DNA of 64,000 bases, taken from contig NZ_BBWQ01000026.1 in NCBI RefSeq assembly GCF_001463885.1, forward strand, positions 1 through 64,000, read 5' to 3'. Made by a program: the position numbers and the translations under genes. Every line of letters begins with the position of its first letter. The stretch's first letter is position 1. The notes beneath the pieces are model-generated. The model did no database searches and was not told the DNA's origin. It worked only from the letters and a program-made list of their open reading frames with translations. Below are positions 31,519 through 64,000 of the stretch, in pieces. The stretch comes from Aureimonas altamirensis. Lineage in GTDB: Bacteria > Pseudomonadota > Alphaproteobacteria > Rhizobiales > Rhizobiaceae.

Positions 31519-31529
31519 CCGCGCCGGCT

Positions 31530-32122: not shown

Positions 32123-33469
32123 ATGCTTCATATAAATGCAAGTACATTTAAGAGTTCGCGTTTTATCGCATTCTCACTTACGTTCGGAGTAATGGCGCTC
32201 TACTGCTACGCTAACTCCGACCTACCTTTCCTAGGTGACGCATATCATACTTGGGAAGTCGCAAGAACACTATACGACGAAAACAGGGAGACATCTTACG
32301 TCGAGTATCGTGGGCCATTTACGTTCATACTTTATAACTTGCTATTTAAAATTTCTAACCTGATTGGCGTTAGCGAATTAATTACACTTCGGTTCTCGTT
32401 GTCGATGATGTTTGCCTTTCTAGTTGTATACATTTTTCCTAAACTATACGAGTTTATATTATCAAAGCGCATAAGAATACTAGAAATATGCCTATTCTCT
32501 TTGTGGAATTTTGTGTTCTTTTCTGGCTATTATTTGTATCCGCAAACCGATACAACAGCTCTATTTTTCTTTGCGACTGGCTTATTAGCCTTAGTCAAGG
32601 CCCTGAATGAGGGCAGAGGCCGATGGTACGCGCTAGCAGGTATCCTGGTTGCCTTCTCGATAATGCTCAGGCTGAATTACGTAGTATCAGTTCCGATATT
32701 GCTCGTCATTATCGTGCTGCGCCAGAAGCTTTCAAAGCGAACTGCATTCGCTGCAGTTTTTCTCTTGGGATGCTTCCTCATGCCGTTATCAGCTCTGGTT
32801 TGGATGAATACGTCAGCCGCTCCAAAAAACAGCGTGCTTGAAGGCCAACTCAAAGGCGGCCTACAGTTTCGCAAAGTTGAGTGGAACGCTGGAGATGCCA
32901 CATACCCCGGATCACTTGTATTTCCTGACAAACGAGGTGCAGAAATCCTATCGAAGGAAGGCATCAAAAGCAGCAAGGAATCTTTTTTTGATGGCGCCAT
33001 CCCGGCAACCCATTATGCGCGCTTATGGCTGACATACCCGAAAGACATGGCAATAATTTACGGACAACATTTTTTTTCCGGGATTGATATAAAGTATAAT
33101 AGTGTTTATATTTATGATTTCTCACGCAACATTATGTTGATTTCCGCCGTCAATTTTTCAGTTCTGTTTATCGCTTTGCTTGCTGCAACCAAATTAGTGC
33201 GCTGGTGCGGTGACATGAAAATGCAAAGAATTTTAATGCTGATTGCGTTAGTTTTCCCTGCGTTTTCAGCGATCCCATTCATAGTGGAGGTTCGCTTCTT
33301 TATGCCTTTAATAGTCGGCTACAGCGCGTTGGGAATTTTTGCGTTAAGGGATTGTCTCCCCTACATGGTCAGGAAAGATTTTTATGTCCAACTTCTGATA
33401 TTCGTGGGACTTTGCCTGCTCAACTCGTCGTCCATGTTTGAGACTACTGACCCCGTTCTTCTCTGGTAG
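32123..33469 (+). CDS. Multi-span membrane protein, GT-C glycosyltransferase-like (possible GtrC role)
   Basis: A 448-residue protein with about 10 hydrophobic segments. The first periplasmic loop after TM1 holds acidic residues in LPFLGDAYHTWEVARTLYDE, as in GT-C fold enzymes, which use lipid-phosphate sugars as donors. A large loop lies around residues 235-310. No closer family could be named. The gene is clearly AT-rich (frequent ATA, TTA, AGA and TAT codons) compared with the GC-rich chromosome, a sign of transfer. Near its start only a weak GCAAAAGAG sequence is seen. Together with the GtrB-like and GtrA-like genes downstream it could be the transferase of a three-component glycosylation system; that is inference. 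Confidence 0.8.
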   Translation: MLHINASTFKSSRFIAFSLTFGVMALYCYANSDLPFLGDAYHTWEVARTLYDENRETSYVEYRGPFTFILYNLLFKISNLIGVSELITLRFSLSMMFAFLVVYIFPKLYEFILSKRIRILEICLFSLWNFVFFSGYYLYPQTDTTALFFFATGLLALVKALNEGRGRWYALAGILVAFSIMLRLNYVVSVPILLVIIVLRQKLSKRTAFAAVFLLGCFLMPLSALVWMNTSAAPKNSVLEGQLKGGLQFRKVEWNAGDATYPGSLVFPDKRGAEILSKEGIKSSKESFFDGAIPATHYARLWLTYPKDMAIIYGQHFFSGIDIKYNSVYIYDFSRNIMLISAVNFSVLFIALLAATKLVRWCGDMKMQRILMLIALVFPAFSAIPFIVEVRFFMPLIVGYSALGIFALRDCLPYMVRKDFYVQLLIFVGLCLLNSSSMFETTDPVLLW

Positions 33470-33895
33470 CGTCATCCGTCCCATATAATATACCTGCGTC
33501 GCAACGGTGTCTTAACGCCAAACACAACGACAGGCCGCGCTTGAAGCGGCTTGCCCGCTTCGCCGTTTAGAGCAGAAAGCTCCGAAGGCGCCATACATGC
33601 CCGATCTGATCGCACCAAACAGGCGTAGACTGTAGCTACCCTCTATCTGCCGAGATCGAGACTTTAGTTTGGATCAGATCAGAGATGCGAAGCGGACCCC
33701 CCCTCTATGGCATCACTCTTCGGCATGCGGCCCGTGCCGCGCGTCTTTGCCACAAAACTCTAGGTCTTGTGCGGCAACGAAGTAAAAATGCGTGATTGTG
33801 ATTTGCCTTCAGGTCTCAGGCCTTCCGCGTCGGCGCAAAATGACGTAGCTAACCTTCGGTAGCGGACGGGCGACAGAAAGCGATCACGAGTCAAT
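33470..33895. other. Intergenic region before the aminotransferase gene
   Basis: 426 bases with no supported gene. A 7-bp hairpin GAAGCGG / CCGCTTC with loop CTTGC lies near 33545-33563. A 9-base inverted repeat GATCTGATC (33603-33611) / GATCAGATC (33672-33680) frames about 60 bases. It may be the scar of a rearrangement, but no transposase remnant is readable. Confidence 0.4.
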
Positions 33896-35017
33896 ATGCC
33901 GAGAATCCCCTTGAATAACCTGAGACGCAACATCGACGAGTACGCCGCGCCGTTGCTAGAAGCTGCCTCGGAAACACTGGCTTCGGGCTGGTGGCTAAAC
34001 GGGAAGAAAACTGAAGCTTTCTGCGCCGAATTCGCTGCCTATGTCGGGGTGGAACACTGTATCGGTGTCGCCAACGGGTCAGACGCCCTTGAGATCGCAT
34101 ATCGAGCCATTATCGCATCTCGCCGGCCTGCGGGCCGGGAAGTGATTACAGTTCCCAATGCTGGCGGTTACTCCGCAATCGCCTGCCATCTGACCGGGCT
34201 TGTACCCGTCTATGCAGATATCGACGAAGCAAGCCAACTTGTATCGATCGATTCCATACTTTCGTGCGTGAGCCCTGACACTGCGTTTGTGGTTGTAACG
34301 CATCTCTATGGTGGGGCAGTGGATGTGCCCGTGCTGCGGCGCCGAATGAACGAGATGGGACGAGGCGATATCGCAATCCTGGAAGACTGCGCTCAAGCTC
34401 ATGGCGCTCTGGTTGGGGGCAGAAGGGTCGGGAGCCTTGGGGATATAGCGACATTCAGCTTTTACCCCACAAAGAACCTCGGCGCTTGCGGTGATGCGGG
34501 AGCGATCGTCAGTAGCGACGCCGATCTGGCGGCCGCTGCGAACGCACTGCGCCAGTACGGCTGGGCCGCGAAATACACGATCGGCGAGCCATTTGGTCGG
34601 AACTCTCGCCTTGATGAGGTCCAAGCGGCGATCCTTTCGGTTCTCCTGCCTCGATTAGACGAGGCCAACGCTCGCCGAACCTTCATACTGGATCGCTACG
34701 CAGCGGCACTACCGAGCGGGATAGTGCTTGTTCGAGCGCCAACTAATACGGTTGGTCATCTGGCTGTCGTTCTATGCGGTCAGCGGGACAACCTGCGGCA
34801 GCACCTGACCGAGAATGGTATCGGCACTGATATTCACTATCCAGTGCTTGATGTCGACCAGCCTGCCTGGGGGAGATTGCCGAGCAGAGAGGCGCCAGGG
34901 GGGCTAACTGTGGCGCGGACCAGCGTCCCGCGTCTGCTAACGCTACCCTGTTTTCCGACAATGCGTGAGGATGAAATCAACAACGTTTGCGAGGCGTTGA
35001 GCTCGTGGCAGATCTAG
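33896..35017 (+). CDS. DegT/DnrJ/EryC1/StrS aminotransferase, FdtB/QdtB-like
   Basis: A 373-residue PLP-dependent sugar aminotransferase. The Schiff-base Lys lies in FSFYPTKNLGACGDAGA, the PLP-phosphate segment is GVANGSDALEIAYRA and the cofactor-ring Asp is in ILEDCAQAHGA. The start IPLNNLRRNI and general features match enzymes that aminate C3 of dTDP-3-keto-6-deoxyhexoses (FdtB, QdtB). The next biosynthetic partner, a WxcM-type isomerase/acetyltransferase, lies two genes downstream, which supports a dTDP-Fuc3NAc or dTDP-Qui3NAc pathway. The earlier steps (RmlA, RmlB) are not in this window. Its end overlaps the next gene. Confidence 0.9.
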   Translation: MPRIPLNNLRRNIDEYAAPLLEAASETLASGWWLNGKKTEAFCAEFAAYVGVEHCIGVANGSDALEIAYRAIIASRRPAGREVITVPNAGGYSAIACHLTGLVPVYADIDEASQLVSIDSILSCVSPDTAFVVVTHLYGGAVDVPVLRRRMNEMGRGDIAILEDCAQAHGALVGGRRVGSLGDIATFSFYPTKNLGACGDAGAIVSSDADLAAAANALRQYGWAAKYTIGEPFGRNSRLDEVQAAILSVLLPRLDEANARRTFILDRYAAALPSGIVLVRAPTNTVGHLAVVLCGQRDNLRQHLTENGIGTDIHYPVLDVDQPAWGRLPSREAPGGLTVARTSVPRLLTLPCFPTMREDEINNVCEALSSWQI

Positions 35018-50813: not shown

Positions 50814-53258
50814 CTAGAACCGCCCGCTGACCCGGAGCCCGAAGCTCCGGCTATCTCCGATGGACGCGAGGTCTCCACCAGCCGAAATGCTGGTCAGATA
50901 GTCTTCATCGAAGAGGTTCTTGGCAAAGGCTGCAATCGTCAGCCATTCGGTCTCGTAGCCGAACTGCGCATTGACCAGCGTGAAGCCGTCAACGAACTGA
51001 CCGGACGAATTGGCAAGGTCGCCATTGCTGAAGAAGCCATCCGTGTAGGACACGTCCGCACCGGCAAAGAAGCCCATTTCATGGCGGTACAGGCCGCCGA
51101 TGGTTGCAGTCAGCGTCGGTGCTTCCGGAAACTCGTTACCGCGCAGATCAAGGCCATCGGCCGTCACCCCCTCGTCGAAGCGGGTCTTCAACAGACCGAC
51201 CGAGGAGAACAGTTCGATGCTCGGCGTGGCCAGAAGGCGCGCCTCCAATTCCGCGCCGTAGGCATGCGATTTCGCGCTGTTCGCCGTGACGGTCTGGCCC
51301 GGGAAGTTCGGATTGTAGGTCAGGATCTGCTGATCGCGGTAATCGTAATAGAAGACGTTGCCATTGAGCTGCAGCCTGTCTTCGAGCCACTGCGAGCGAT
51401 AGGCGACCTCATAGGACCAGAGATATTCCGGCTCGATCCTGTTGATTGAGGTCGAGCCCGGCACGGCCTCCGAAAAGCCGGCGCGGTAGCCGCGACTGGC
51501 CGTCAGGGCGACGCTTTGGCTGGGTGTTACATCGAAGGAGACCCCCGCCTTGGGCAGGAAAACCGTGTTCGACACAGCGTTGTTTTCGTCGAGGGAGCCG
51601 AACGCCGGAAGGCCCGTGGCAAGGGTCTCGTCCAGGTTGAGCGCGACACCGCGATAGTCGGCCGAAACCTTGTCGCGCAGGATGCGACCTCCGGCCATCA
51701 AGGTCCAGCGATCGCCGACCTTCAGCCGGCCATCGCCATACAGCGCGATGGACTCGGTACGGTTCTGCGCTTCCAGCGTCTGGATGTTGATGAGCGGAAC
51801 GCCGAACGGCGCCAGCAGGGTCGTGTCGATATGCGAGTCGATGTCCGTCGTGAAGCGTCCTGCAAAGATGCCGGCCACGCCCGAGAACCGTCCATCGGCC
51901 GGATCGTAGGTCAGGTGCAGATCCTGGGAAACATCCTTGCCTTCGCGCGTGTCATCGCGAATGAAGGAGAACCCTTCCGGGCTTGCGATCCTCACGTCGG
52001 TATCGGCGAGCGCCGTCACGGATTTCACCGTCCAGTCCGGCGAGAGTTCGTAGCTGAGGTCGGCGACGTAGCGGTTCACGTAGGTGTCGCGGTATTCGGC
52101 TGCGCTGTTGGTTGGGTCATCGAAACGCCGCGCGAAGAAGTCCGGGCCGCTGACGAAGCTCCATCCCGGCTTGTCATGCGTGCGACTGATGCTGAAAAGG
52201 CCGGTCAATCCAGGCAGCGCCTCCGGTGTGAATAGCAGCTTGCCCCGGATCTCCTGGAACTCGTCTTCGCCGAGGGACGCGATTGCGGGGTCGGCATAAT
52301 GGATATCCTTCGTCTCCTTCCAGCCCTGCCCGGACACGCGGAATGCAAGCTGATCGGCAATGATGGGCGACGAAAGTGCAAAGGCGCCGGAAAGAAAGTC
52401 GTTGTTGCCGACCATGCCGTCGACCAGAAATTCCGGTGTCCAGGTCGGGTCCTTCGTCTTCACCACCACAGAGCCGGCAAGGGAATTGCGGCCCTGCAAG
52501 GTCGACTGGGGACCGCGCAGCACTTCGACCTGCTCGACATCCCAAACGCCCCGGCTTCCACGCCTGGTCGCCTCGATGCCCTGTTCGACGCCGTCGACGA
52601 CAACGGATACCACCGGCGAGGAACGGCTTGGTTGGGTGACGCCTTCGGCGCTGAGGCCGCGGATGGCGAAACTGGTGTTCCCGCTGCCACTGTTGAAGGA
52701 GCGGACATTGGCCATGCGATTGACTGCCTGACTGATCGTGTTCAGGCCGTCGCGCTCGATCTCTTCTCCGGTCACCACTCCGACACTCGTATAGGTGCTG
52801 GAAAGGTCGCGGGAGAATTTCTCACCCGTTACGGTAACGGTATCCAGTGCGATGACGCCGGACCCGATGGATTCCTCCCCCGAAACGTCGGCGCTCTGTC
52901 CGGAAGGCACGGTCAGAACTACGGTCCGGGGACCGCTGAAACTGTACGAAAGCCCTGTTCCGTCAAGCAGATGGCGTATCGCTTCCTCGGCGGTAAACTG
53001 GCCGCTCAGACCGGCCGTCTGCATGCCGCGGACGAGCGCGCTGTCGAAACCGATCTGCAATCCGCTTTGGCTGGCAACAGCATTCAGCCCGGAGGCCAGG
53101 CTTCCGGCGGCAACGTTGAAGCGAACGGTTTCCTCCTGGGCGGACGCGATGGTCGGGACCAACCCGGCCGCCGTCAGGACGACACTCGACGCCGCAAGCG
53201 CCAACATGCGTGCCATCGACCCATAGGAGAAAGAACGAACGGTCTTTCGGTTATGCAT
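50814..53258 (-). CDS. TonB-dependent siderophore receptor with STN signalling domain (FecA-like)
   Basis: An 814-residue outer-membrane receptor. The signal peptide (residues 1-41) ends ASAQE. The STN (secretin/TonB N-terminal) domain is at about 50-120 (LASGLNAVASQSGLQIGFDS). The plug (about 135-265) contains VTVTGEKFSRDL and EVLRGPQSTLQGRNSLAGSV. A 22-strand barrel follows, with the C-terminal aromatic end FGLRVSGRF. The STN domain signals to FecR, so ligand binding outside can switch on the FecI sigma factor. Upstream ATGs add no signal sequence; 53258 was chosen. It lies 104 bases after fecR. Confidence 0.96.
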   Translation of the reverse strand: MHNRKTVRSFSYGSMARMLALAASSVVLTAAGLVPTIASAQEETVRFNVAAGSLASGLNAVASQSGLQIGFDSALVRGMQTAGLSGQFTAEEAIRHLLDGTGLSYSFSGPRTVVLTVPSGQSADVSGEESIGSGVIALDTVTVTGEKFSRDLSSTYTSVGVVTGEEIERDGLNTISQAVNRMANVRSFNSGSGNTSFAIRGLSAEGVTQPSRSSPVVSVVVDGVEQGIEATRRGSRGVWDVEQVEVLRGPQSTLQGRNSLAGSVVVKTKDPTWTPEFLVDGMVGNNDFLSGAFALSSPIIADQLAFRVSGQGWKETKDIHYADPAIASLGEDEFQEIRGKLLFTPEALPGLTGLFSISRTHDKPGWSFVSGPDFFARRFDDPTNSAAEYRDTYVNRYVADLSYELSPDWTVKSVTALADTDVRIASPEGFSFIRDDTREGKDVSQDLHLTYDPADGRFSGVAGIFAGRFTTDIDSHIDTTLLAPFGVPLINIQTLEAQNRTESIALYGDGRLKVGDRWTLMAGGRILRDKVSADYRGVALNLDETLATGLPAFGSLDENNAVSNTVFLPKAGVSFDVTPSQSVALTASRGYRAGFSEAVPGSTSINRIEPEYLWSYEVAYRSQWLEDRLQLNGNVFYYDYRDQQILTYNPNFPGQTVTANSAKSHAYGAELEARLLATPSIELFSSVGLLKTRFDEGVTADGLDLRGNEFPEAPTLTATIGGLYRHEMGFFAGADVSYTDGFFSNGDLANSSGQFVDGFTLVNAQFGYETEWLTIAAFAKNLFDEDYLTSISAGGDLASIGDSRSFGLRVSGRF

Positions 53259-53362
53259 TGCCCCACACCCTCGACGCCGCACGCGCCACCCCAGCGCGTA
53301 AAAATGCGGGCGTTGCAGTGAAGACGAATGGGAGTGGTCGTTTGGGCCGTCAGCGTGCAAAC

Positions 53363-54313
53363 TTAATAGATCAAAGTGACAAAGGGCCCGGCCCGGGCTG
53401 TCCGTAAGCCAAAAGCCTGGGCAAAGCTGGCCAGCGTCTCGTCCGGCTTCGTCAGGTCGAACGTCCCGGAAATAGCGCGGGCGCGAAGCGCAGATCCGAC
53501 AACGACGACCTGCCCCGGCAAATGGCGGGCCAGTTCCTCCACCACCTGGCCGAGGGGACGATCCTCAAAGACGAGCCGACGGTTGCGCCAGGATGTTTCG
53601 GCCACGGCATCGACCACGCTGACCGGTCCGAGATGGCCGTCCGGGTCGTAGCGGAGCTGGTTGCCGGGAGTCAGGCTTATGCGCTCGGTTCCGCCTTCCC
53701 CGGACACTTCGACGACGTGCTCGGTCACCGTGACTTCCGTGGCGGCAGAGCCCAGATTGACGTTGAAGGCTGTTCCGAGCACCCGGATCTCGCCGCCGCC
53801 CGCCTTTACGGTGAAGGGCCGTGCAGGGTCGCTCGCTACTTCGAAATACGCTTCGCCGCGAAGCAGCGAGACTTCACGCCGGTCCGGGCCGAAATCATAG
53901 GCTATCGAGGAACGGCCGTTGAGCAAAACCCGCGAGCCATCGACAAGGGTGATCGAGCGCAGCTCGCCCGGCGACGTCATGTCATCGGCGACCAGTCTCA
54001 TCGGCACGTCGGCAAGCCAGATCGTTGCTGAAACTGCCAAAGCAAGAACCGAGACCGTGCCGATGATCGGCGTTCGACTGCCACCCTCCAGCGCCTGCCG
54101 CGTTGCTTTCGGATCCGCAGCCAAGGCCGTGCGGCTCTGGCCTAGAAGCGACTGCGCCTTCTCGAAAGCCGAGCGGTTGAGGGGGTCCTGATCGAGCCAG
54201 GTATTGAAGCGGACACGTTCCGACGGGTTCAACTCGCCATCTTCGAGGCGAAGCAGCCAATCGATGGCTTGTTTGCGAGATTGCTGCCGGCGTTGCGTCA
54301 ATGGCTGGGTCAT
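53363..54313 (-). CDS. fecR: FecR-type anti-sigma/sensor protein
   Basis: A 316-residue inner-membrane regulator. The cytoplasmic N-terminal part has AIDWLLRLEDGELNPSERVR and FNTWLDQDPLNRSAFEKAQ (DUF4880). One membrane helix lies at about 85-105. The periplasmic FecR domain contains ITLVDGSRVLLNGRSSIAYD and LLRGEAYFEVASDPARPF. A C-terminal DUF4974 domain touches the receptor's STN domain. It relays the receptor signal to FecI. It lies between fecI and the receptor gene, as in classical Fec systems. Confidence 0.94.
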   Translation of the reverse strand: MTQPLTQRRQQSRKQAIDWLLRLEDGELNPSERVRFNTWLDQDPLNRSAFEKAQSLLGQSRTALAADPKATRQALEGGSRTPIIGTVSVLALAVSATIWLADVPMRLVADDMTSPGELRSITLVDGSRVLLNGRSSIAYDFGPDRREVSLLRGEAYFEVASDPARPFTVKAGGGEIRVLGTAFNVNLGSAATEVTVTEHVVEVSGEGGTERISLTPGNQLRYDPDGHLGPVSVVDAVAETSWRNRRLVFEDRPLGQVVEELARHLPGQVVVVGSALRARAISGTFDLTKPDETLASFAQAFGLRTARAGPFVTLIY

Positions 54314-54361
54314 CCTGTCCTGCCTATCTCATGACAAGACGAATGACAGCGTCAAAAAGGC

Positions 54362-54889
54362 TCATTCCGAGTCGAATTCATCCATGCGATCGAGGCAGTG
54401 AAGGAGCGCCTTGCGCAAATGGCGATCCACCATGCGTCGCTGGATGCCAAGGGCGGTGGCGATCTCTTCCTTGGTGACACTCCCGAGACGGTGAGCAACG
54501 AAAACCGTCCGGCACTGTGGCGGAAGCTCCAGGATCGCGGCGCGCAAGCATGCCAGCCTTCGCGGCCGATCGAGAAGGTTCGTGATATCGGTTCGATCTG
54601 CAGGGATTTCAATTGCCTGGGCGTCGAGAGCTGCGAAGAGACGCGCCTCGAAGGCGGCTCGGCGACCCCGATCTATTCCCAGATTGATAGCAGCCTTGAT
54701 CAGAAAGGCCTTTATCGAGCGCGCACCATCCAGCGCCCGCGGTTTTCCCGACAGCGCTATATAAAGGTCGTGGACGATTTCCGTCGCCTGCGACGATGAC
54801 GCGCCGCGACGGCTGACTGCCGACCTGATCTCGTCGTAGTAGGTCTCGATGGCGGCATCTATGAGCGATTTCTGCTCGCTGGCATGCAT
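54362..54889 (-). CDS. fecI: FecI-type ECF sigma factor
   Basis: A 175-residue ECF sigma factor. Region 2 covers SLIDAAIETYYDEIRSAVSR and QATEIVHDLYIAL; region 4 contains LPPQCRTVFVAHRLGSVTKE and ALGIQRRMVDRHLRKALLHC. It is activated by FecR and directs transcription of the receptor and transport genes. ATG 54889 was chosen over an upstream start at 54928, which lies within the iron-operator region. An iron-responsive TGA-N9-TCA palindrome lies 43 bases upstream, so the sigma gene itself is likely iron-repressed. Confidence 0.93.
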   Translation of the reverse strand: MHASEQKSLIDAAIETYYDEIRSAVSRRGASSSQATEIVHDLYIALSGKPRALDGARSIKAFLIKAAINLGIDRGRRAAFEARLFAALDAQAIEIPADRTDITNLLDRPRRLACLRAAILELPPQCRTVFVAHRLGSVTKEEIATALGIQRRMVDRHLRKALLHCLDRMDEFDSE

Positions 54890-55218
54890 GGATTGAAGGC
54901 TCGTTACGCGACCCCGTCCACAAGCCAAATATGACCATTATAGTCAAGTAATTTCTCGGCCCGTTAAACCATGCAAGGCGCAACCGTTAGCTACTAGGAT
55001 AGTGGCATCGTCACCGATGCCGACGTTCGCGTGCATCAATCCGCATGCCGTAGTCGGATTTAGGTCGCCACGAAGGCGGTGGGCTACCACCGGTTTCATG
55101 TCACGGCCCCAGTGTTCGAATTGTCCTAATTTAACATATGAAACAATCTTGGCGCTCAGTTCACTGCCAAAGCCAAGTCTGCGGACTGCCCTATGGCAGC
55201 CCGCAGGCAGGCGCTTCG
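54890..55218. other. Intergenic region upstream of fecI
   Basis: 329 bases between the fecI start and the end of the ABM gene, both leftward. It holds the iron operator (54932-54946) and therefore the fecI promoter. The rest (54960-55218) shows no ORF with family features and no clear terminator for the ABM gene. Confidence 0.5.
54932..54946. promoter_or_regulatory. Iron-responsive operator (RirA-type, TGA-N9-TCA)
   Basis: TGAC and GTCA flank CATTATA, giving an exact TGA-N9-TCA palindrome within an AT-rich stretch. This is the form of the iron-responsive operator bound by RirA in rhizobia under iron sufficiency. It sits 43 bases upstream of the fecI ATG. Confidence 0.6.
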
Positions 55219-55503
55219 TCAGATGACCGCTTTGGAATGGGTAACGGTCGGCGGCACCCTGAAGAAGGGCGATGCCAGTCGTCGCCATTCGCCGAACGCG
55301 TCCGACTGCCGAAAATCGACCGTGTGATTTTCGACTGTCTCCCATTTGACGATCAGGCGGTAGACATCCGGGTTCTCCACCACCCTGTGCAGCGACAGGC
55401 CGTGGCAGCCCTTGGCAGCCAGAAAGAGCGGCTCGGCCTGCCTGACTGCGTCTTCGAACCCTGACGGGTCCGTCACTTCGATTTCCGCGATTTCCACATA
55501 CAT
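55219..55503 (-). CDS. Antibiotic biosynthesis monooxygenase (ABM) domain protein
   Basis: A 94-residue dimeric alpha+beta barrel protein. VEIAEIEVTDPSGFEDAVRQ opens the domain; GCHGLSLHRVVENPDVYRLI and VKWETVENHTVDFRQSDAF follow the ABM pattern. Members oxidise quinone-like or other small molecules, or simply stabilise reactive intermediates. It is the last gene of a leftward operon with cupin, aldehyde dehydrogenase, sugar isomerase-like, Ldh-type dehydrogenase and CitMHS genes. The role within the pathway is unknown. Confidence 0.85.
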   Translation of the reverse strand: MYVEIAEIEVTDPSGFEDAVRQAEPLFLAAKGCHGLSLHRVVENPDVYRLIVKWETVENHTVDFRQSDAFGEWRRLASPFFRVPPTVTHSKAVI

Positions 55504-55565: not shown

Positions 55566-55973
55566 TCACGCGGGCTTGTGGCCGTGTTCGGCGTCTATTG
55601 TCCGCGTCTCGCCGGTTTCGATCATCGTCCGCGTGGCGTCGATGGTCGCGTAGGTCCAGAATATCCGCATGGGCTTGTCGGTCGGATTGATGAAACGATG
55701 CGGAACATTCGCCGGGATCCACGTCGTGTCGTTGGCTTCCAGCCGGTGCTGTACGCCATCGATCTCGGCGATTGCCTGGCCTTCGATGACCATGACGCTC
55801 TCTTCGCAATTGTGCTTGTGAACGCCGATCGCCGCACCAGGATCGAAAGCGGTAATCCCGTTGATCATGCTGGTGGATCCACAGCGACGGGTTACCAGAG
55901 GCGTAGTCCTGGCACCGCCGCCGCGGTCGTTGGTTTTCAGCTCGGTTGGCCGCAGGATTGCCGCTTCGGTCAT
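55566..55973 (-). CDS. Cupin domain protein
   Basis: A 135-residue single-domain cupin. Motif 1 is GVHKHNCEESVMVIEGQAIA, with two His and a Glu as metal ligands. Motif 2 is TWIPANVPHRFINPTDKP, with the final His. An active metal site is therefore likely. ATG 55973 has GGGAG 6 bases upstream. It is 10 bases after the aldehyde dehydrogenase gene. It could be a dioxygenase, an isomerase or a small-molecule sensor. Confidence 0.88.
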   Translation of the reverse strand: MTEAAILRPTELKTNDRGGGARTTPLVTRRCGSTSMINGITAFDPGAAIGVHKHNCEESVMVIEGQAIAEIDGVQHRLEANDTTWIPANVPHRFINPTDKPMRIFWTYATIDATRTMIETGETRTIDAEHGHKPA

Positions 55974-55983
55974 GGTCTTCTCC

Positions 55984-57387
55984 CTATTTGGTCGCCTCGA
56001 CGGGCTGGGCCGCGTTGGCCGGGCCGATCCAGACGGTCTTGATGTTGGTGAATTCGCGGATTCCATAGACGCCGAGTTCGCGGCCATATCCCGAACGCTT
56101 GATGCCCCCGAACGGATAGCGGGGGTCGGAGGCGGTCATCCCGTTGATGAAGACCGCGCCCGCCTCGATCGAACGGGCGAGCTGCTTTGCGCGCTCGATG
56201 TCCGCGGTCCAGAGGGCGGAGCCAAGGCCGAACTCGCTGTCGTTGGCAAGCCGGATCGCTTCATCGGCATCCTTGGCACGGATAATGGCTGCCACCGGAC
56301 CGAATGTTTCCTCGCGGAAGGCCACATGATCGGGCGTTACATTGTCGAGCACGGTCGGCGCGTAGAAATAGCCTGGTCCGTCGACCGGCGTGCCGCCGAG
56401 CGCCAGCGTTGCTCCGCCTTCAACCGAACGCTCGACCTGGGCGTGCAGCGTGGAGCGCAGGTTTTCCCTGGCCATCGGCCCGATATTAGTGTCGCGCGCC
56501 ATCGGATCGCCGACCTTCAGGGCCTTGGCGTGCTCGACGAACAGCTCGACGAAGCGATCGGCGACGCTGTCCTCGACGATGAAGCGTTTGGCATTCACGC
56601 AGGATTGGCCGACATTGATGTAGCGTGCCTTTACCGCGGTCTCTGCGGCCTTCTCGATATCCGCATCCGCGAGTACGATGAACGGGTCGGAACCACCCAG
56701 CTCCAGGACCTGCTTCTTTAAGGCTTTACCCGCCTGCGAAGCAACGATGGATCCAACCTCGGTCGATCCGGTCAGAGTGACTGCGGCGATCCGGTCGTCG
56801 GCTATGAGCGCTGCGACCTTGGAGTTGTCGATCAAGAGCGTGGCGGTCAACCCCGCAGGAGCGCCGGCCTTCTCCATGACCTCCTGAACCGCCAGGGCGC
56901 ATTCCGGAACGTTGTTCGCATGCTTCAGGACAGATCCGTTGCCAGCGGCCAGTGCCGGGGCGGCGAAACGGAAATACTGCCAGAACGGATAGTTCCAGGG
57001 CATGATGGCCAGAACCACGCCGAGTGGGTCGAACGCGACCACACTTTCCGATGCGTTCGACGGCACCGGCTCGTTTGAAAGGTAGGCGACCGCGTGTTCG
57101 GCGTAGAAGTCGCAATTATAGGCACACTTCTCGATCTCCGCCTCGGCCTCTGCGATCGGCTTGCCCATTTCCCGAACGATCATCTCGGCATAACGCGACT
57201 TGCCGGATCTCAGCGCTTCCGCCATGCGGGTCAAAAGGCCGACGCGCTGCTCGATGGGAACGGCTCTCCACGCGCGCTGGGCATCCACCGCTGCATCGAG
57301 AATCTTGTCGACGGCAGCGTCATTGTGCAGTTCATAGGTGTCGATCGCCAGTCCCGTAGCCGGGTTGGTGGACGTGATATGGGCCAT
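55984..57387 (-). CDS. NAD(P)-dependent aldehyde dehydrogenase (succinate-semialdehyde dehydrogenase-like)
   Basis: A 467-residue aldehyde dehydrogenase superfamily enzyme. The cofactor part has VLAIMPWNYPFWQYFRFAAP, the general base Glu is in LELGGSDPFIVLADAD, and the nucleophile Cys in NVGQSCVNAKRFIVED. The C-terminus has PFGGIKRSGYGRELG. The short N-terminus and motifs match the GabD/YneI group that oxidises succinate semialdehyde and related omega-oxo acids to diacids. AGGAGG precedes ATG 57387. It sits within the catabolic operon, likely finishing the pathway. Confidence 0.93.
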   Translation of the reverse strand: MAHITSTNPATGLAIDTYELHNDAAVDKILDAAVDAQRAWRAVPIEQRVGLLTRMAEALRSGKSRYAEMIVREMGKPIAEAEAEIEKCAYNCDFYAEHAVAYLSNEPVPSNASESVVAFDPLGVVLAIMPWNYPFWQYFRFAAPALAAGNGSVLKHANNVPECALAVQEVMEKAGAPAGLTATLLIDNSKVAALIADDRIAAVTLTGSTEVGSIVASQAGKALKKQVLELGGSDPFIVLADADIEKAAETAVKARYINVGQSCVNAKRFIVEDSVADRFVELFVEHAKALKVGDPMARDTNIGPMARENLRSTLHAQVERSVEGGATLALGGTPVDGPGYFYAPTVLDNVTPDHVAFREETFGPVAAIIRAKDADEAIRLANDSEFGLGSALWTADIERAKQLARSIEAGAVFINGMTASDPRYPFGGIKRSGYGRELGVYGIREFTNIKTVWIGPANAAQPVEATK

Positions 57388-57404: not shown

Positions 57405-58193
57405 TCAGATCCTGCGGTCGTTGCTCATCGATGAGGCCCATTTCGCCAGGAAACGGGCACTGTCGCTCGTGCTTTTGGTGGGGACGTATTCGAAGCCTAC
57501 GGCGCCCGCATAATCGTGCATGCGCAGCGCCGCCAGAAAACCGTCGAAATCGATCAAACCGGTTCCCGGTTCGTGGCGTCCCGGATGATCCGCAATGTGG
57601 ATATGTCCGACACGCCGATGATTGCTGCAAAACCAGCTCGTGGCGTCGATGCCCTGGACCGCGGCGTGATACGTGTCCAGAAGCAGCTTGATACGCGGTC
57701 CATGGCGATCCTGCAGTGCCATGGCATCGTCCAGTGAGCCCATCGCATAGCCCGGTATGGTGATCGGCTCGATCAGGAGAGAGATCGGCGTTCCGGAAAC
57801 GGCCGCGAGGGCGTAGCTAATATTGGCTTCGTAAGTTTCTGTTGCCGCCGCGTCGAGATGCACGGGAACGCCTGCCATCGGATGGACGAAAGGACATCCG
57901 ACGGCGAGGGCATACTCGAGCGCTCGATCAAAGCCTTGCCGAAACTCCGCCTCCCGCCCCGGCAGGGCCGCCAGACCTTTTTCGCCTCGGTCCGGATCGC
58001 CCATGCCGCTGGTAACTTGAGAGAATGTCAGCGACAGCTCCTTGAGGCGCTGGCGCATCTCCGCAGCCGGAATGGCATAGGGGGATGGATGCTCGACCGC
58101 CGTGAAGCCATCGGTCGCGGCGGCCTGCAGCCGCTCGGCAAGGGGCAACTCGGTGTAGAGATAGCCGATATGCGCGGACCAGCGCTGCGTCAT
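57405..58193 (-). CDS. Hydroxypyruvate isomerase family protein (xylose isomerase-like TIM barrel)
   Basis: A 262-residue AP-endonuclease-2-type TIM barrel. The opening SAHIGYLYTELPLAERLQAA and the metal-ligand regions LLIEPITIPGYAMGS, IKLLLDTYHAAVQG, VGHIHIADHPGRHEPGTG and VGFEYVPT match the Hyi/OtnI/YgbM group. These enzymes isomerise hydroxypyruvate to tartronate semialdehyde or 2-oxo-tetronates. It overlaps the Ldh-type gene stop by 4 bases and precedes the aldehyde dehydrogenase gene by 17 bases. The substrate here is inferred to be a short 2-oxo-hydroxy acid. Confidence 0.9.
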   Translation of the reverse strand: MTQRWSAHIGYLYTELPLAERLQAAATDGFTAVEHPSPYAIPAAEMRQRLKELSLTFSQVTSGMGDPDRGEKGLAALPGREAEFRQGFDRALEYALAVGCPFVHPMAGVPVHLDAAATETYEANISYALAAVSGTPISLLIEPITIPGYAMGSLDDAMALQDRHGPRIKLLLDTYHAAVQGIDATSWFCSNHRRVGHIHIADHPGRHEPGTGLIDFDGFLAALRMHDYAGAVGFEYVPTKSTSDSARFLAKWASSMSNDRRI

Positions 58194-59278
58194 GCGGCCT
58201 CGCTGCGGGGCTGGGACAGGCCTTCCGGAAACTCGACACCGACCTTGCGGCCTTCTGTCGTCAGTTCTTCGATGACGTTGTCGGTAATGGGGATGCCGGC
58301 AAGCATACGATGGTGCTCGCGACGCTGCTCGGGCTCGCCAGGCATCATGATCTCGTCCACACCGGCGGCGCGCGGCAGTTCCTTTATGCGCTCGTAGAAA
58401 GTATCCATCCGCGTCTCGAAATCGGTCAATGACATGAACAGATCCGGCTTCATGGCGAAGAACAGATGCCCGACATTCTGCGGTTCCGAATGATCGAAGT
58501 AGAGGCTTTTGACGTCGCCCGCGAAGTTCGCGCCGGTTAGGGCTCCCGCCATCAAATCCATGAGCGTCGCCAGCACGGAACCCTTGACCCCGCCGAACGG
58601 CAGACAAACGCCTTCGAAGGCCTTTGCGGCATCCGTCGTCGGATGACCATCCACGTCGAGGGCCAACCCTTCGGGGATCGGATCGCCCTTCATCGCGGCA
58701 AGGCGGATCTTGCCTCGGGCGATGACCGTCATGGCCATATCCATGACGTACGGCGCGTGCTTTCCACCGGGAATGCCGGCCGCGATAGGGCTTGCCCCCA
58801 GGAAGGTGCTTCGCCCGCCCCACATGGGTATGGCCGGCGACGAGTTGGTGAATATGAGCGTGATGTAGCCGCGCTCGATAGCCTGCAACGCGTAGGAGGC
58901 GCCCATGCCGAAATGCGTGGAGCGGTGCACACCGACAAGGCCGATGCCGTTGCTTTCCGCAAGATCGCAGGCCAGATCCGTCGCGCGATGAGAGGCAATG
59001 AAGCCCATTCCATTATCGCCATCAACATGCGCGACGGCGCCGGCAACCCTGGTCGCTTTCACGTCGGGCTTCGGATTGACGAGTCCCGCCCGCAGCCGGG
59101 TCAGATACATGGGCATGCGGCTGACACCGTGGCTATCCACCCCGCGCAGGTTGGCTTTCACCAGATCGCGCGCCACGGTTGCGGCGTCGTCCTTCGGCAT
59201 ACCGACGGATTCGAACATCGCCGTGCTGTAGTCGATCAGTGGATCTGCGTCGAAATAACGGGTCTGCGTCATCGACAT
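58190..59278 (-). CDS. Ldh family NAD(P)-dependent oxidoreductase (malate/lactate/ureidoglycolate-type)
   Basis: A 362-residue type-2 malate/L-lactate dehydrogenase-fold enzyme. LVKANLRGVDSHGVSRMPMY carries the catalytic His in SHG. VGVHRSTHFGMGASYALQAI, TNSSPAIPMWGG and PYVMDMAMTVIARGKI follow the family order. Members oxidise 2-hydroxy acids such as malate, sulfolactate, ureidoglycolate and 2,3-diketogulonate. It is second in the operon, 3 bases after the CitMHS gene stop. This suggests that the imported compound is a hydroxy-carboxylate that is oxidised first. Confidence 0.93.
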   Translation of the reverse strand: MSMTQTRYFDADPLIDYSTAMFESVGMPKDDAATVARDLVKANLRGVDSHGVSRMPMYLTRLRAGLVNPKPDVKATRVAGAVAHVDGDNGMGFIASHRATDLACDLAESNGIGLVGVHRSTHFGMGASYALQAIERGYITLIFTNSSPAIPMWGGRSTFLGASPIAAGIPGGKHAPYVMDMAMTVIARGKIRLAAMKGDPIPEGLALDVDGHPTTDAAKAFEGVCLPFGGVKGSVLATLMDLMAGALTGANFAGDVKSLYFDHSEPQNVGHLFFAMKPDLFMSLTDFETRMDTFYERIKELPRAAGVDEIMMPGEPEQRREHHRMLAGIPITDNVIEELTTEGRKVGVEFPEGLSQPRSEAA

Positions 59279-59281
59279 CTC

Positions 59282-60622
59282 CTAGTTTGCAAATGAGGGC
59301 AGCGTCACCGCACCCATGGCGACGGCTCCGATGAGCATCAAGCCCGTCAGGACAAGCGTCCACTTGATGGCGAACCTCTGGAAATCACCGAGTTCGACCT
59401 TGGATAGATTGACCAGCACATAGAGCGCCGCGACAAGCGGGCTTAGCTGGTGGACCGGCTGGCCGATCAGCGAGGCTCTGGCAATCTCCTCGGGCGGGAT
59501 GCCGTATGTCGAGGCCGCTTCGGCCAGCACCGGGACGACGCCGAAGTAGAATGCGTCGTTGGACAGGAAAAACGTGAACGGCGCGGAAGCGAGTGCGGTG
59601 ATCAGCGGCAGCCAGCTGCCGTGGCCATCGGGTATAAGCCAGATGATGCTCTGCGCGAGGGCGTCCGTCATCCCCGTCCCCTTCAGGACGCCGGTGAAGA
59701 TGCCGGCGGCAAAGATGACCGACGCCACCGCCAACGCGTTCGGCGAGTGCTCGGCGATCCGTTCGCGCTGAGCCCCGACGTCGGGAAAATTGACGGTGAC
59801 CGCTATGGCGAAGGCAACCATGAAAAGGATTGCCAAGGGCGCGATGTCGAGCACCAGAAGTAGCATCAGAGTCAGCGTGAGGATCAGGTTGAAGGCGGCC
59901 CGCCATCCCGTCGCGCTCGGCACGCTCGATGCCGGCATTGCAAAGTCGCCCTCCTTGCCGACAAAGGGGTCATCTTTCTTCACCCCGCGCTGGGCAGGCT
60001 CGGGGATGCGCCCGATCCGCTTGCGCTCCTTCAGGCCGAGATAGTAGCAGATGGCAACCGAGCCGAGCGTGGCCAGGACCATCGCCGGCAGCAGCGGCAG
60101 AACCACCTGGCTCGGATCGAGATGAAGGGCGGCCATGACCCGGGCCGGAGGGCCGCCATACGGCATCAGGTTCATGATGCTGTTCGGCATCATGATTGCC
60201 AGTGGCAGGATCAGGGGATTGAGCCCGAGCCGCCTGTGCATGGGCATCATCGCCGTGACGCAAAGCATATAGGTGGTGGAGCCGTCCCCATCGAGGGAAA
60301 TTACCGCGGAAAGAAGCGTCGTACCGACGACCACACGGACCGGATCACCATGCGACAGGCGGACGACGAGCCGGACGACCGGGTCGAACAGGCCGACATC
60401 GATCATCAGCCCGAAATACAGGATGGCGAAGAGCAGCAAAACCGCCGTGGGGGCGATGGACCGGATGCCGTCGATCATCATGGCCGGCAGTTCGCCGGCG
60501 TAACCGCCGATCAGCGCAAAGACCGTCGGCACGAGGATCAGCGCGATCAGCGCGGAAAGCTTTCGCGTCATGATCGCCGTCATGAACACGACGATCATCG
60601 AATATGCGAGGAGCGTCGTCAT
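59282..60622 (-). CDS. CitMHS family carboxylate transporter
   Basis: A 446-residue membrane protein with about 12 helices. CitMHS features include VISLDGDGSTTYMLCVTAMM, NSIMNLMPYGGPPARVMAAL and, in the second half, TFFLSNDAFYFGVVPVLAEA. Characterised relatives bring in metal-citrate complexes with protons. Here it heads an operon of hydroxy-acid enzymes, so a citrate-like or other di/tricarboxylate is the likely substrate. GGGAGG lies 7 bases before ATG 60622. Divergent is the GntR regulator gene; the shared region has a long inverted repeat. Confidence 0.92.
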   Translation of the reverse strand: MTTLLAYSMIVVFMTAIMTRKLSALIALILVPTVFALIGGYAGELPAMMIDGIRSIAPTAVLLLFAILYFGLMIDVGLFDPVVRLVVRLSHGDPVRVVVGTTLLSAVISLDGDGSTTYMLCVTAMMPMHRRLGLNPLILPLAIMMPNSIMNLMPYGGPPARVMAALHLDPSQVVLPLLPAMVLATLGSVAICYYLGLKERKRIGRIPEPAQRGVKKDDPFVGKEGDFAMPASSVPSATGWRAAFNLILTLTLMLLLVLDIAPLAILFMVAFAIAVTVNFPDVGAQRERIAEHSPNALAVASVIFAAGIFTGVLKGTGMTDALAQSIIWLIPDGHGSWLPLITALASAPFTFFLSNDAFYFGVVPVLAEAASTYGIPPEEIARASLIGQPVHQLSPLVAALYVLVNLSKVELGDFQRFAIKWTLVLTGLMLIGAVAMGAVTLPSFAN

Positions 60623-60788: not shown

Positions 60789-60816
60789 ATTGTTCTAATT
60801 CTGCACATAGAACAAT
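60789..60816. promoter_or_regulatory. Inverted-repeat operator between the CitMHS operon and the GntR gene
   Basis: ATTGTTCTA (60789-60797) and TAGAACAAT (60808-60816) are exact reverse complements around a 10-base spacer. The repeat lies about 73 bases before the GntR ATG and about 167 bases before the CitMHS ATG. Both strands read TTGTTC-N17-CAATWT across it, so promoter elements may overlap it. It is the probable target of the tandem winged-helix GntR protein. Confidence 0.65.
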
Positions 60817-60888
60817 TTTTAGAGGACCGCAAGCTTTCTGGCATTCTGCTGGGTGGCGATGCACAATGCCGCCGCAGAGGTGGGAACA

Positions 60889-61770
60889 ATGACCAATCAG
60901 CTTCATCGGACAGTCGCGGCCAAGATCATCAGGCACATAAGGGCCAACGGCCTGCCGGAAGGGCATCACATGACCGAGGCGGCGCTGCAGCGGGAGATCG
61001 GGGTTTCGCGCGGGCCGATACGGGCCGCGATGTCGCAACTGGAGAAGGATGGTGTCCTGACACGGATCCCCAACCGGGGCTTCTTCCTTCACAAACCGCT
61101 GGGCAATGAGGGCGATACGATCGAGATCGTCGGCGATGAGCAGGTCTATCTACGCATAGCGGATGACCGGCTGACGGGGTATCTACCCGAGATCGTCAGC
61201 GAGACGGAATTGATGCGCCGCTATGACCTCGGGCGCGAGAGAATCCGGAGGATCCTGACGCGGATCGCGGCCGAAGGATGGATCGAGCGGCGCGACGGAC
61301 GCGGCTGGAGTTTCGTGCAGCTGATCGACTCGATCGAGGCCTACCGTGAGAGCTACGAGCTTCGACAGATGATCGAACCTTCCGGGATGCAGGGGGATCG
61401 TTTCAGGCTGGACGCGGTCGTACTGGATCGGCTGGAGGCTCAGCAGTTTCATATCCGCGACGGAGGCTGGGAGACGATGGGCCAGATCGAGCTCTTCGAA
61501 GCGAACTCCCAGTTTCATGAGGGCCTCGCGGCCATGTCGGGCAACCGCTTTGTGCTTGGGGTGGTGGAACGACAAAATCATCTGCGCCGTCTTGTCGAGT
61601 ACCGTCAGACGCTGCGTCGCGAACAGGTTCGCCAACAAAACGACGACCATCTGCACATACTGGAATTGCTGCGACAGGGTGATCGCAGGGACGCCGCAGC
61701 GGCCCTCTATGCACATCTTGGCAATGCCAAGCGGCGGAAGGCAAATACCGGAATTTTCGCCAACCAGTAG
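60889..61770 (+). CDS. GntR/FCD-type regulator with two winged helix-turn-helix domains
   Basis: A 293-residue regulator. The first GntR winged helix is at about 4-72 (MTEAALQREIGVSRGPIRAA, DGVLTRIPNRGFFLH). A second, similar winged helix follows at about 100-142 (VSETELMRRYDLGRERIRRI, then WIERRDGRGWSFV). The C-terminal helical FCD-like ligand domain (about 145-285) shows EANSQFHEGLAAMSGN and DDHLHILELLRQGDRRDAA with metal-type His residues. A single winged helix is normal for FadR-type regulators, so the duplication is unusual. ATG 60889 has GAGG about 9 bases upstream; starts at 60853 or 60859 are possible. It is divergent from the CitMHS operon, which it likely controls. Confidence 0.88.
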   Translation: MTNQLHRTVAAKIIRHIRANGLPEGHHMTEAALQREIGVSRGPIRAAMSQLEKDGVLTRIPNRGFFLHKPLGNEGDTIEIVGDEQVYLRIADDRLTGYLPEIVSETELMRRYDLGRERIRRILTRIAAEGWIERRDGRGWSFVQLIDSIEAYRESYELRQMIEPSGMQGDRFRLDAVVLDRLEAQQFHIRDGGWETMGQIELFEANSQFHEGLAAMSGNRFVLGVVERQNHLRRLVEYRQTLRREQVRQQNDDHLHILELLRQGDRRDAAAALYAHLGNAKRRKANTGIFANQ

Positions 61771-61825: not shown

Positions 61826-62902
61826 CTACGCACCGGCCCCGTCGAACTGCGCCTCGAGATCCAGAAGATCCTTCAGGCTGGTTGTCCCGAGCGCTGGCAG
61901 AAGATCGTTCTCTACGGAGAAGTCGCGTCCGTAGAGGGCGCCGAACAGCGAAAGCCCCGCGGCATGCAACGGCGTTGCGACACCGACCATGCCGCCGAGC
62001 GCCACCATCGGCACCAGGCCGAAGGGAACATCCTCCAGCGTGTAGCGCGTGTCGATGGTCGTCGGCCCGGCTTGCGGGTTCGGCTGGGCGGCAAGCTGCC
62101 GAGCCGTCTCTTCCAGCGGCGCATCCGGCACGCCATAGGTCAGGCTGTAATGCTGGCGCATCGAGCGCACCGTAACGCCCGCCGCGTTTGCGACGGCCAG
62201 CCGCTCCGCATCGAGGCCTTCCAGCAGCCTCCCGACCGACGCGGTGAGATTGTCGCTCTGCCCCCACGCCTCGCCCTTCTCCATCCGCGTGAAGTTGCAG
62301 AGGGCGAGCGCCATGTGGCTTTGCGGGTTGACGTTGCCGAGGGCGATCGACAGCAGGCCATCGACGGGGCGGAAGCGTTCGCCGAACGCATCGGCAAGCA
62401 AAGCCAGCGTCTTCGCGCAAGCGGATTGCGGAACCACAGCCACATCCACCGCCTTTCGCAAGGTCGCCACCCTGACCCGCGTCGGCGATGTCCGGCGCGA
62501 GCGCAGGATCGTGGTGTTGAAGGCGGCCACACATGCGCCGGTGCCATGTGCCACCAGACGCTTGATGAGATAGTACGCACCCAGCGAGGCGTGCGAGCTG
62601 ATGGCCACGATTTGCGTTGGTTGAAGGGCTGCTGCCATTTCGTCGAAGACGCGGCGATGCCCGTTCGCCGGCAGGGCCACCAGAACGAGCTGCGCCCCCG
62701 CCATCGCTTCGGCGCAGCTTTGGGCCGTCGAGACGGCGAAGCTGCCCTCGATCTTGCCTTCGCTGGTCAAGGGTGCCCCATCGCGGAAAGCCGCGGTGCT
62801 TGCACCGGACGGAGACCACAGCACGGGCTGGTGCCCGCGCTCCATCAAAAGGGCCGCGCAACCGAACGCCTGCGCGCCCGCACCCAGTATGGCGACGCGC
62901 AT
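61826..62902 (-). CDS. NAD/NADP octopine/nopaline dehydrogenase family protein
   Basis: A 358-residue protein. The N-terminal Rossmann motif is VAILGAGAQAFGCAALLM. The C-terminal octopine-dehydrogenase domain contains SMRQHYSLTYGVPDAPLEET and DTRYTLEDVPFGLVPMVALG, with the His-Asp pair typical of opine dehydrogenases. The family makes or breaks N-(carboxyalkyl)amino acids. ATG 62902 shares one base with the stop of the upstream FAD oxidoreductase gene, so both act together. Whether it degrades an opine or reduces another imine cannot be told from sequence. Confidence 0.9.
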   Translation of the reverse strand: MRVAILGAGAQAFGCAALLMERGHQPVLWSPSGASTAAFRDGAPLTSEGKIEGSFAVSTAQSCAEAMAGAQLVLVALPANGHRRVFDEMAAALQPTQIVAISSHASLGAYYLIKRLVAHGTGACVAAFNTTILRSRRTSPTRVRVATLRKAVDVAVVPQSACAKTLALLADAFGERFRPVDGLLSIALGNVNPQSHMALALCNFTRMEKGEAWGQSDNLTASVGRLLEGLDAERLAVANAAGVTVRSMRQHYSLTYGVPDAPLEETARQLAAQPNPQAGPTTIDTRYTLEDVPFGLVPMVALGGMVGVATPLHAAGLSLFGALYGRDFSVENDLLPALGTTSLKDLLDLEAQFDGAGA

Positions 62903-64000
62903 CAGGCCGGCTCCTTCTGGAAGAACCGAGCCGGGCGAAAATCATCAAGTTCAGGCCGGGGCCGCCCATTCAGAACTTCGTCGGCCAGGGCCTCGCCGAT
63001 GAAGGCTCCGAGCGTGACCCCGCTATGGGTGACGGCCACCCAGTAATTCCCGAGGTTCGGAACGGGTCCGACGGCGGAGTAGCTATCCTGCGGGATCGGG
63101 CGGATGGCGATGCGCACCGCCTCGATGCCCACGGACGCAAGCGCCGGAACGGTAGCCTCGGCACGCCGCAACAGTTCCAATGCCTGCGGATGATCGAGCG
63201 CCGGCGCATCGTGGTTGCCCACCAGTTGGTCCAGCTCGTTCGAGCGCAGAAGAAGCCGCCCCGCGCCATCCGGCCTCATATTGACCAGCGGGGTGCGTAG
63301 CGCGCGCCGCAGCCCTATGCCGGCGGGCGCCGTATAGGCAATCAGCCCCACGGTCGGCGCCAGCGGCACATGCGGGGCACCCTCGCCCACCGTCTCGTTG
63401 GACCACCGGCCGGAGCAGTTGATGACGGCATCGGCGCCGAGAACGGACCCGTCGTCCAGCCTGACGCCGGTGCAGCGACCGGATTCGACCACCAGGCCGG
63501 CGACCTTTCCCCGCACGAGGGTCAGCCCGTGCCGCACCATGGCCGCTTCCGTCAACGAGCCGGCATACAATGTCGGATCCAGCCAGCCATCCTGCGGATA
63601 ATGGATGACGGGCGCGTTGCCGATCGCGTCGGCATTGATCTGCGGTTCCAGCTCGCGAACATCCCGGGCGTCGATCAGCTCTGCCGGATAGCCCCACTCC
63701 ACGAGCTGACGGTACTTGTCCAACGGGTCGTTGTCGTCGCGCCCGCCGGCCTCGGCTTCGGCATGCTGCCACTGCAGCACGCCCGGGCGATGATACCAGG
63801 CGGGAGACTCGAATTCATCGAGGATCGCCTCATGCGCCTGCCGGCCGGCATAGTTGAGCTTGTAATAGCTGTGCGATGTCAGCTTTTCGCAGGCATTCAC
63901 CCATGCGTAGCTGACGCAGGAGGTGCCGCCGCCGACGCGGTCGGCTTCCACCAGAGTAACCTGTGCGCCGCCCTGCGCGAGGCGATAGGCGACCGAGGAG
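62902..64000 (-). CDS. FAD-dependent amine/amino-acid oxidoreductase (DAO family), partial at window edge
   Basis: The reading frame runs off the right edge; its first complete part reads SVAYRLAQGGAQVTLVEADR, the end of an FAD-binding GxGxxG region, so about 20 N-terminal residues are missing. The rest covers a glycine-oxidase/sarcosine-oxidase-like DAO fold: GGGTSCVSYAWVNACEKLT near the flavin, DAVINCSGRWSNETVG, and the C-terminal VAVTHSGVTLGAFIGEALAD. Related subunits oxidise opines, D-amino acids or N-methyl amino acids. Coupling to the octopine-dehydrogenase-family gene suggests a shared amino-acid-derived substrate. Confidence 0.88.
   Translation of the reverse strand, partial: SSVAYRLAQGGAQVTLVEADRVGGGTSCVSYAWVNACEKLTSHSYYKLNYAGRQAHEAILDEFESPAWYHRPGVLQWQHAEAEAGGRDDNDPLDKYRQLVEWGYPAELIDARDVRELEPQINADAIGNAPVIHYPQDGWLDPTLYAGSLTEAAMVRHGLTLVRGKVAGLVVESGRCTGVRLDDGSVLGADAVINCSGRWSNETVGEGAPHVPLAPTVGLIAYTAPAGIGLRRALRTPLVNMRPDGAGRLLLRSNELDQLVGNHDAPALDHPQALELLRRAEATVPALASVGIEAVRIAIRPIPQDSYSAVGPVPNLGNYWVAVTHSGVTLGAFIGEALADEVLNGRPRPELDDFRPARFFQKEPA

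Follow-up and report, generated by a model that had tools for sequence, protein, structure and literature searches.

A GntR/FCD regulator with two predicted winged helices and a conserved, wide-span predicted operator in Aureimonas altamirensis and its relatives

Introduction

Regulators of the GntR/FCD type are among the commonest in bacteria, and their usual architecture places a single DNA-binding domain in each chain. The window studied here, a stretch of 64,000 nucleotides from Aureimonas altamirensis (contig NZ_BBWQ01000026.1), encodes an FCD protein in which two winged helices (wHTH1 and wHTH2) are predicted, and its gene lies beside an inverted repeat with a wide spacer. We asked what a chain with two reading heads would read, and whether the doubling of the heads and the width of the site belong together.

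Sequence sets

Full-length relatives of the regulator were found in 26/199 genomes of its family (E <= 1e-30), 50/397 of its order (E <= 1e-35), 20/385 of its class (E <= 1e-30) and 18/398 of its phylum (E <= 1e-25), its own genome being counted each time. The training set began as 106 oriented loci; removal of 7 duplicates and of L067 and L073, which contain internal stops, left 97, and clustering at 80% identity reduced these to 82 non-redundant relatives, from which 300 bp on each side were taken (164 flanks). Ordinary FCD genes served as controls: of 30 loci one (L144) had no full ORF and was left out, giving 58 flanks, and the starts of the control proteins (186-281 aa) were set by rule without individual domain check. 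A held-out set was drawn from 35 new loci of other orders and classes, outside the training set; 26 were kept, and the span analysis took all 35.

Results

Domain architecture of the regulator

The best start of the regulator gene is the ATG at 60889, which follows a ribosome-binding-like GAGGTGG; a GTG at 60853 is an alternative. Pfam recognises GntR (PF00392) in two stretches of the product (1.6e-21) and FCD (PF07729) once (7.7e-14). A preliminary description of this DNA had proposed a duplicated winged helix, while allowing that the second segment might not fold as one. Scanned alone, that segment scores 30.2 bits against the curated GntR cut-off of 27, and an AlphaFold2 model (mean pLDDT 82.6; input, the window protein and five relatives) gives complete winged helices in both places, so the duplication holds up; the search for further proteins of this domain order, which the same description had suggested, turned up the widespread double-wHTH relatives listed above. 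The modelled elements are H2-20, H30-37, H41-53, E57-60 and E64-67 in wHTH1 and H81-95, H105-112, H116-128, E132-135 and E139-142 in wHTH2, joined by a linker of low confidence (residues 72-81). Residues 149-285 form six helices, in keeping with the six or seven of an FCD domain. The coordinates are collected in Table 1.

Table 1. Features of the regulator, the divergent gene cluster and the predicted operators in the window
Feature	Position	Strand	Basis
wHTH-wHTH-FCD transcriptional regulator, 293 aa	60889..61770	+	Pfam GntR twice and FCD; GAGGTGG before ATG; AlphaFold2 model
wHTH1, residues 2-67, with E30, S40-R41 and R45	60892..61089	+	AlphaFold2 secondary structure; conservation
wHTH2, residues 81-142, wing G137-x-G-W140-x-F	61129..61314	+	AlphaFold2; Pfam GntR cut-off; conservation
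FCD domain, residues 149-285, six helices	61333..61743	+	Pfam; AlphaFold2; structural comparison
Operator 1 (predicted), 28-bp palindrome ATTGTTCTAATTCTGCACATAGAACAAT	60789..60816	.	Repeat search, genome pattern, family matrix
Citrate:proton symporter (CitMHS), divergent from regulator, likely target	59282..60622	-	NCBIfam TIGR00784 1.7e-155; GGAGG before ATG
Ldh_2 family (malate/lactate/sulfolactate-type) dehydrogenase	58190..59278	-	Pfam PF02615 7.9e-121
TIM-barrel protein	57405..58193	-	tblastn synteny with L038, L096 and L112; orthologous cluster annotated in L182, L184 and L186
Aldehyde dehydrogenase	55984..57387	-	Pfam PF00171 7.6e-147; start at MAHIT inferred
Cupin	55566..55973	-	Pfam PF07883 2.3e-18; start inferred
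Small ORF, antibiotic-biosynthesis-monooxygenase-like by position	55219..55503	-	ORF; same place so annotated in A. larrymoorei L182
Operator 2 (predicted), ATTGTCCTAATTTAACATATGAAACAAT	55120..55147	.	ATTGT-N18-ACAAT genome pattern; 24.2 bits on family matrix

In structural comparison wHTH2 and the FCD domain together (about residues 79-292) align over the full length of the ordinary regulators FadR, Lar and PmiR, and this likeness to complete single-winged-helix chains extends to other FadR/VanR-type FCD regulators (Atu1419, TM0439). Because this part covers whole ordinary FCD chains, wHTH2 holds the canonical position and the additional domain is wHTH1, for which single GntR winged helices such as that of YydK are structural matches (65 residues, 1.3 A, Z 11.2). 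Judged from sequence and model, the protein is an FCD-type GntR regulator whose second winged helix was gained at the N-terminus, and it thus departs from the usual architecture with a single DNA-binding domain. The Foldseek and VIA-align matches included no solved chain that has both an FCD domain and two winged helices, an absence that is a weak sign. Across the 82 relatives S40 is invariant and R41 present in 81 (wHTH1), and G137 is likewise invariant and W140 present in 79 (wHTH2). The FCD histidines H210, H254 and H276, with a presumed metal role, are conserved in all 6 aligned proteins.

Predicted operators in the window

The 266-bp intergenic region beside the regulator gene contains the inverted repeat with the 9-base arms and 10-base gap of the preliminary description: ATTGTTCTA (60789-60797) and TAGAACAAT (60808-60816) pair at 9/9 positions, 10 nt apart. 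Of 3000 dinucleotide shuffles of the region, 2.6% contained a perfect 9-bp repeat at any spacing of 0-30, and 0.5% one at a spacing of 8-12. By itself the repeat is therefore no more than mildly unusual, and the case rests on its conservation. In Rhizobium mesosinicum (L038, 60% identity) a different repeat, ATTGTCATAAATATTCATTTACGACAAT, occupies nearly the same place and has an equal total length, which led us to suspect a 28-bp unit with ATTGT...ACAAT ends. Within the 4.19-Mb genome ATTGT-N18-ACAAT occurs at two places, operators 1 and 2 (reversed control, 0), and a longer form with two mismatches allowed again finds just these two; both begin ATTGTyCTAATT. The repeat was thus real, although what is conserved is the dyad of 28 bp as a whole and not its 9-base arms, and the earlier view of it as the only strong site nearby gives way to the second copy.

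Operator 1 lies in the divergon upstream of both genes, at 73 bp from the regulator ATG and 167 bp from that of CitMHS, and scores 21.9-23.2 bits on the family matrix. A scan around it found no sigma-70-like promoter or terminator. An attenuator or terminator hairpin was rejected as the main reading of the repeat, since its arms are rich in A/T, the scan gave no terminator and the motif goes with the protein. At a distance of 5.7 kb from each other, the two operators bracket the cluster that runs from CitMHS to the small ORF. Operator 2 sits beyond the final gene of the operon and not at a clear promoter, upstream of a FecI-like sigma gene (a sequence call) by about 190-230 bp. Looping between the two sites was considered, and operator 2 may also be part of the FecI-like gene's promoter, albeit at a large distance. 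Genes called from sequence as FecR-like, FecI-like sigma and a TonB receptor that begins with an STN-like part adjoin operator 2 (50814-54928), and the regulator might for that reason also touch an iron-uptake operon.

A palindrome shared by the family

Palindromic EM on the 164 family flanks returned one motif, aTTGtaTTTT.t....a.AAAAtaCAAt (aTTGtaTTTT-N8-AAAAtaCAAt), with a log-likelihood ratio of 584 against 82-128 in five shuffled sets. Sites above 12 bits are present at 65 of the 82 loci (80/164 flanks), compared with none of the 58 ordinary FCD flanks and 13/820 shuffled flanks. When the training set was split in half, 28/41 unseen loci carried a site, against 2/58 control and 7/410 shuffled flanks; among the held-out orders and classes the figure was 18/26 loci, against 16/1040 shuffled flanks. 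No site above 12 bits was found at 17 of the 82 training loci and 8 of the 26 held-out loci, and two rather near relatives, L039 (49% identity) and L071 (42% identity), lack one within 300 bp beside the regulator gene. Taken together, the double-wHTH FCD proteins are a widespread family with a conserved predicted operator of fixed span.

Operator span

The span was also left free between 22 and 44 bp. A half-site pair was then found in 90/164 family flanks, 48 of them at 28 bp, 15 at 29, 7 at 27 and no more than 2 at any other span; shuffled flanks were flat over spans, and control flanks had none at 28. Since the half-site matrix was learned from 28-bp alignments, the held-out flanks matter here: 70 were examined, 45 had a pair, and these peaked at 28 (23/45). 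A cruder, sequence-free symmetry test of 82 upstream regions gave a modest excess without a sharp peak at 28 (25 occurrences of span 28 where 15.2 were expected, and 30 of span 30 where 14.1 were). The 29-bp form characterises a lineage and is a natural spacing variant: 10 of the 14 loci that carry it fall in one clade of 12 members. The proteins of this clade (L016, L017, L047, L049, L054, L060, L066, L083, L092, L093) have Gln at wHTH2 residue 105.

For the FadR subfamily, PMC4494728 gives TKGT/ACMA boxes in which GT and AC stand 3 nt apart, or 2 nt in some groups. The boxes here, TTGT and ACAA, are of that kind; the distance is not, with GT-N18-AC in sites of 28-29 bp throughout the family and T/A tracts filling part of the gap. 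The spacing is thus wider than in the FadR-type sites given there, as was noticed at the outset. Because 2-3 nt in those sites stand against 18 here, and the fixed-span motif is family-wide and does not occur with equal score beside ordinary FCD regulators, the suspected match of protein architecture and spacing is borne out to the extent that the two go together.

Probable target genes in relatives

Distances given here run from the near edge of a site to the annotated start. In Agrobacterium larrymoorei L182 (63% identity) the regulator and a divergently transcribed TctC-TctB-TctA-CitMHS-Ldh-TIM-ALDH-cupin-monooxygenase operon have the operator between them, and another site stands 220 bp before a second citrate symporter. 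Two Shinella loci (L184, L186) have one site ahead of the regulator-AtuA-DUF4387 genes and a second 75-77 bp before a TctCBA-Ldh-TIM operon; in A. fabrum L181 a second site is found 37 bp before a carboxylesterase gene. The Bosea locus L039 has its site in a TctC/aconitase (AcnA) divergon, at the head of an operon whose last gene is the regulator. An orphan copy on another A. larrymoorei plasmid (L183, 59% identity) is without target genes, and its operator is gone, the upstream region being otherwise similar to that of A. fabrum. Because the relatives' sites accompany TctABC, CitMHS and Ldh operons, control of tricarboxylate or hydroxy-acid uptake and oxidation is the most likely function. 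Repression, rather than activation, would fit the divergent, self-flanking placement that is usual for FCD repressors; FCD regulators can activate too, as described for CitO.

Assignment of the winged helices and proposed mechanism

The clearest covariation between protein and site concerns position 5 of the operator. Over the 65 sites this position is T in 57/64 half-sites where wHTH1 residue 30 is E, and C in 34, T in 13, G in 13 and A in 6 of 66 half-sites where it is not; with R at residue 45 it is T in 66/92, and otherwise C in 30/38. Six phylogenetically independent pairs gave 5 for, 0 against and 1 tie, and the association persisted when position 5 was masked in the site search (T in 49/62 with E30, 11/64 otherwise). 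A check on the held-out set, where just 2 of 18 loci lack E30, gave p = 0.60. By motif spacing, residues 30 and 45 align with Glu34 and Arg49 of FadR, which Table 1 of PMC4494728 lists as part of the DNA-contact cluster. Because position 5 covaries with the equivalents of these residues, the outer half-sites are probably read by wHTH1. For the inner tract no clear covariation with wHTH2 was seen, and distance correlation gave it to neither domain; from geometry, wHTH2 would read the inner T-tract in a four-headed dimer.

We propose that the protein binds the two-fold symmetric 28-bp operator ATTGtaTTTT-N8-AAAAtaCAAT as a dimer held by its FCD domains, which would present four winged helices. 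The two wHTH1 would read the outer TTGT and ACAA half-sites on one DNA face, GT centre and AC centre being 20 bp apart, and the two FCD-proximal wHTH2 would lie over the inner T/A tracts at a distance of 12 bp from each other. The regulator would repress its own gene and the divergent operon for carboxylate uptake and oxidation until a carboxylate, bound by the FCD domain, released it. Direct binding, four heads per dimer and the ligand are parts that we infer. As a whole, a double-wHTH FCD regulator on a 28-bp operator, acting as a four-headed dimer in carboxylate-released repression, is the best explanation, and we put its probability at roughly 0.7.

A different stoichiometry was considered, in which two dimers or a tetramer occupy the site in the manner of NanR or BusR, with 12-14 bp for each half, and the second winged helix makes protein contacts. 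Tetramers are on record, for Atu1419 in PMC7797058 and for BusR in PMC8517857, where four winged helices are placed on a bipartite site 22 bp apart, and the silence of the inner tract in the wHTH2 covariation would suit such a role. Because the half-site ATTGtaTTTTnt is itself asymmetric, one dimer per half is unlikely, and wHTH2 is conserved about equally with wHTH1 (mean information 1.91 against 1.76 over the 82 relatives), with a basic residue at R/K116 of its recognition helix in 78/82 and an intact wing. We regard this arrangement as unlikely.

The heads might also be exchanged, with the outer half-sites read by wHTH2, and wHTH1 either on the inner tract or without a specific site. The partial rho with outer-site distance is higher for wHTH2 (0.21) than for wHTH1 (0.11), and columns E105 and L108 also associate with operator position 4. 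Against this, the strongest single association is that of position 5 with wHTH1 residue 30, residue 45 following closely; both correspond to the FadR contact residues, and the outer TTGT is the canonical FadR-subfamily box. The exchange therefore seems distinctly doubtful. That the palindrome belongs to another regulator of the same carboxylate operons, with the double-wHTH protein binding elsewhere, is very improbable: the site is absent beside some relatives and its assignment is computational, but across orders and classes the motif goes with the double-wHTH gene, does not occur at that score near ordinary FCD genes, covaries at position 5 with wHTH1 contact residues and was lost by the orphan copy L183.

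Relation to known systems

The regulator shares with FadR/VanR-type FCD regulators the TTGT/ACAA boxes, the adjoining carboxylate genes and the divergent placement, and differs from them in its extra front winged helix, in a GT-AC distance of 18 nt against 2-3 and in an operator of 28-29 bp with inner T/A tracts. BusR of Streptococcus agalactiae is the nearest published mechanism that we encountered. According to PMC8517857 it is a GntR winged-helix protein with an RCK_C domain and a coiled coil, which acts as a molecular ruler on a bipartite site of strictly fixed spacing; four winged helices and a fixed-distance bipartite operator (span peak at 28) are proposed here on the same principle. 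As described there, however, BusR is a tetramer with one winged helix per chain, a coiled-coil spacer and 22 bp, whereas two heads per chain and an FCD domain are predicted here; no RCK_C domain was found in the regulator among Pfam families up to E 1, and FCD was present. Atu1419, described in PMC7797058 as a tetrameric FCD regulator on 10-bp palindromes, likewise appears there without two heads in one chain. The YtrA subfamily resembles the present case in its extended palindromes, where GT/AC lie well away from the centre (PMC4494728), and differs in having one winged helix and a short two-helix C-terminal domain without FCD, against the six-helix FCD domain here.

A search of titles and abstract starts in the open-licence PMC literature found no description of a double-wHTH FCD regulator or of the present operator, and on that basis we take the regulator as a novel variation within GntR/FCD. 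The joint occurrence of two heads and a wide site suggests that the doubling of the reading heads went with a stretching of the operator. We lean towards a scheme in which the subfamily fused two heads in each chain and in parallel split the TTGT|ACAA operator by ~16-18 bp; the result would be a covalent four-headed ruler on four boxes in fixed register, and the one-base shift to 29 bp in one clade would reflect coevolution of ruler and site. If the four-headed model is true, it offers an uncomplicated example of a domain duplication and a stretched operator that coevolved, with a one-base spacing variant available. Operators of double-wHTH regulators would be missed by searches that assume GT-N3-AC, and from the motif regulons for the uptake and oxidation of tricarboxylates (TctABC, CitMHS) can be predicted in many Alphaproteobacteria and in some further proteobacteria.

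Other observations

The genome has 28 FCD matches. A protein encoded in it, L002 (G000:C5:42804-43649), was recognised by eye and by alignment as a second double-wHTH FCD-like protein (329 aa, 29% identity); its flanks are without the 28-bp site, and it may read another operator. Convergent with the regulator, at 61826-63951 on the - strand, lie genes that Pfam assigns to an octopine/nopaline dehydrogenase-type and a DAO-type oxidoreductase, possibly an opine-like pathway. The window also contains an A+T-rich island at 31500-34000, where G+C is 0.45-0.49 against about 0.66 just before. In the two Shinella loci (L184, 8888-8990; L186, 8890-8990) TTGG-type and TTGT-type 28-bp sites lie between two divergent FCD regulators of comparable size, and in L184 the second of these regulators matches GntR twice and FCD in Pfam and has a TTGG-type site of its own.
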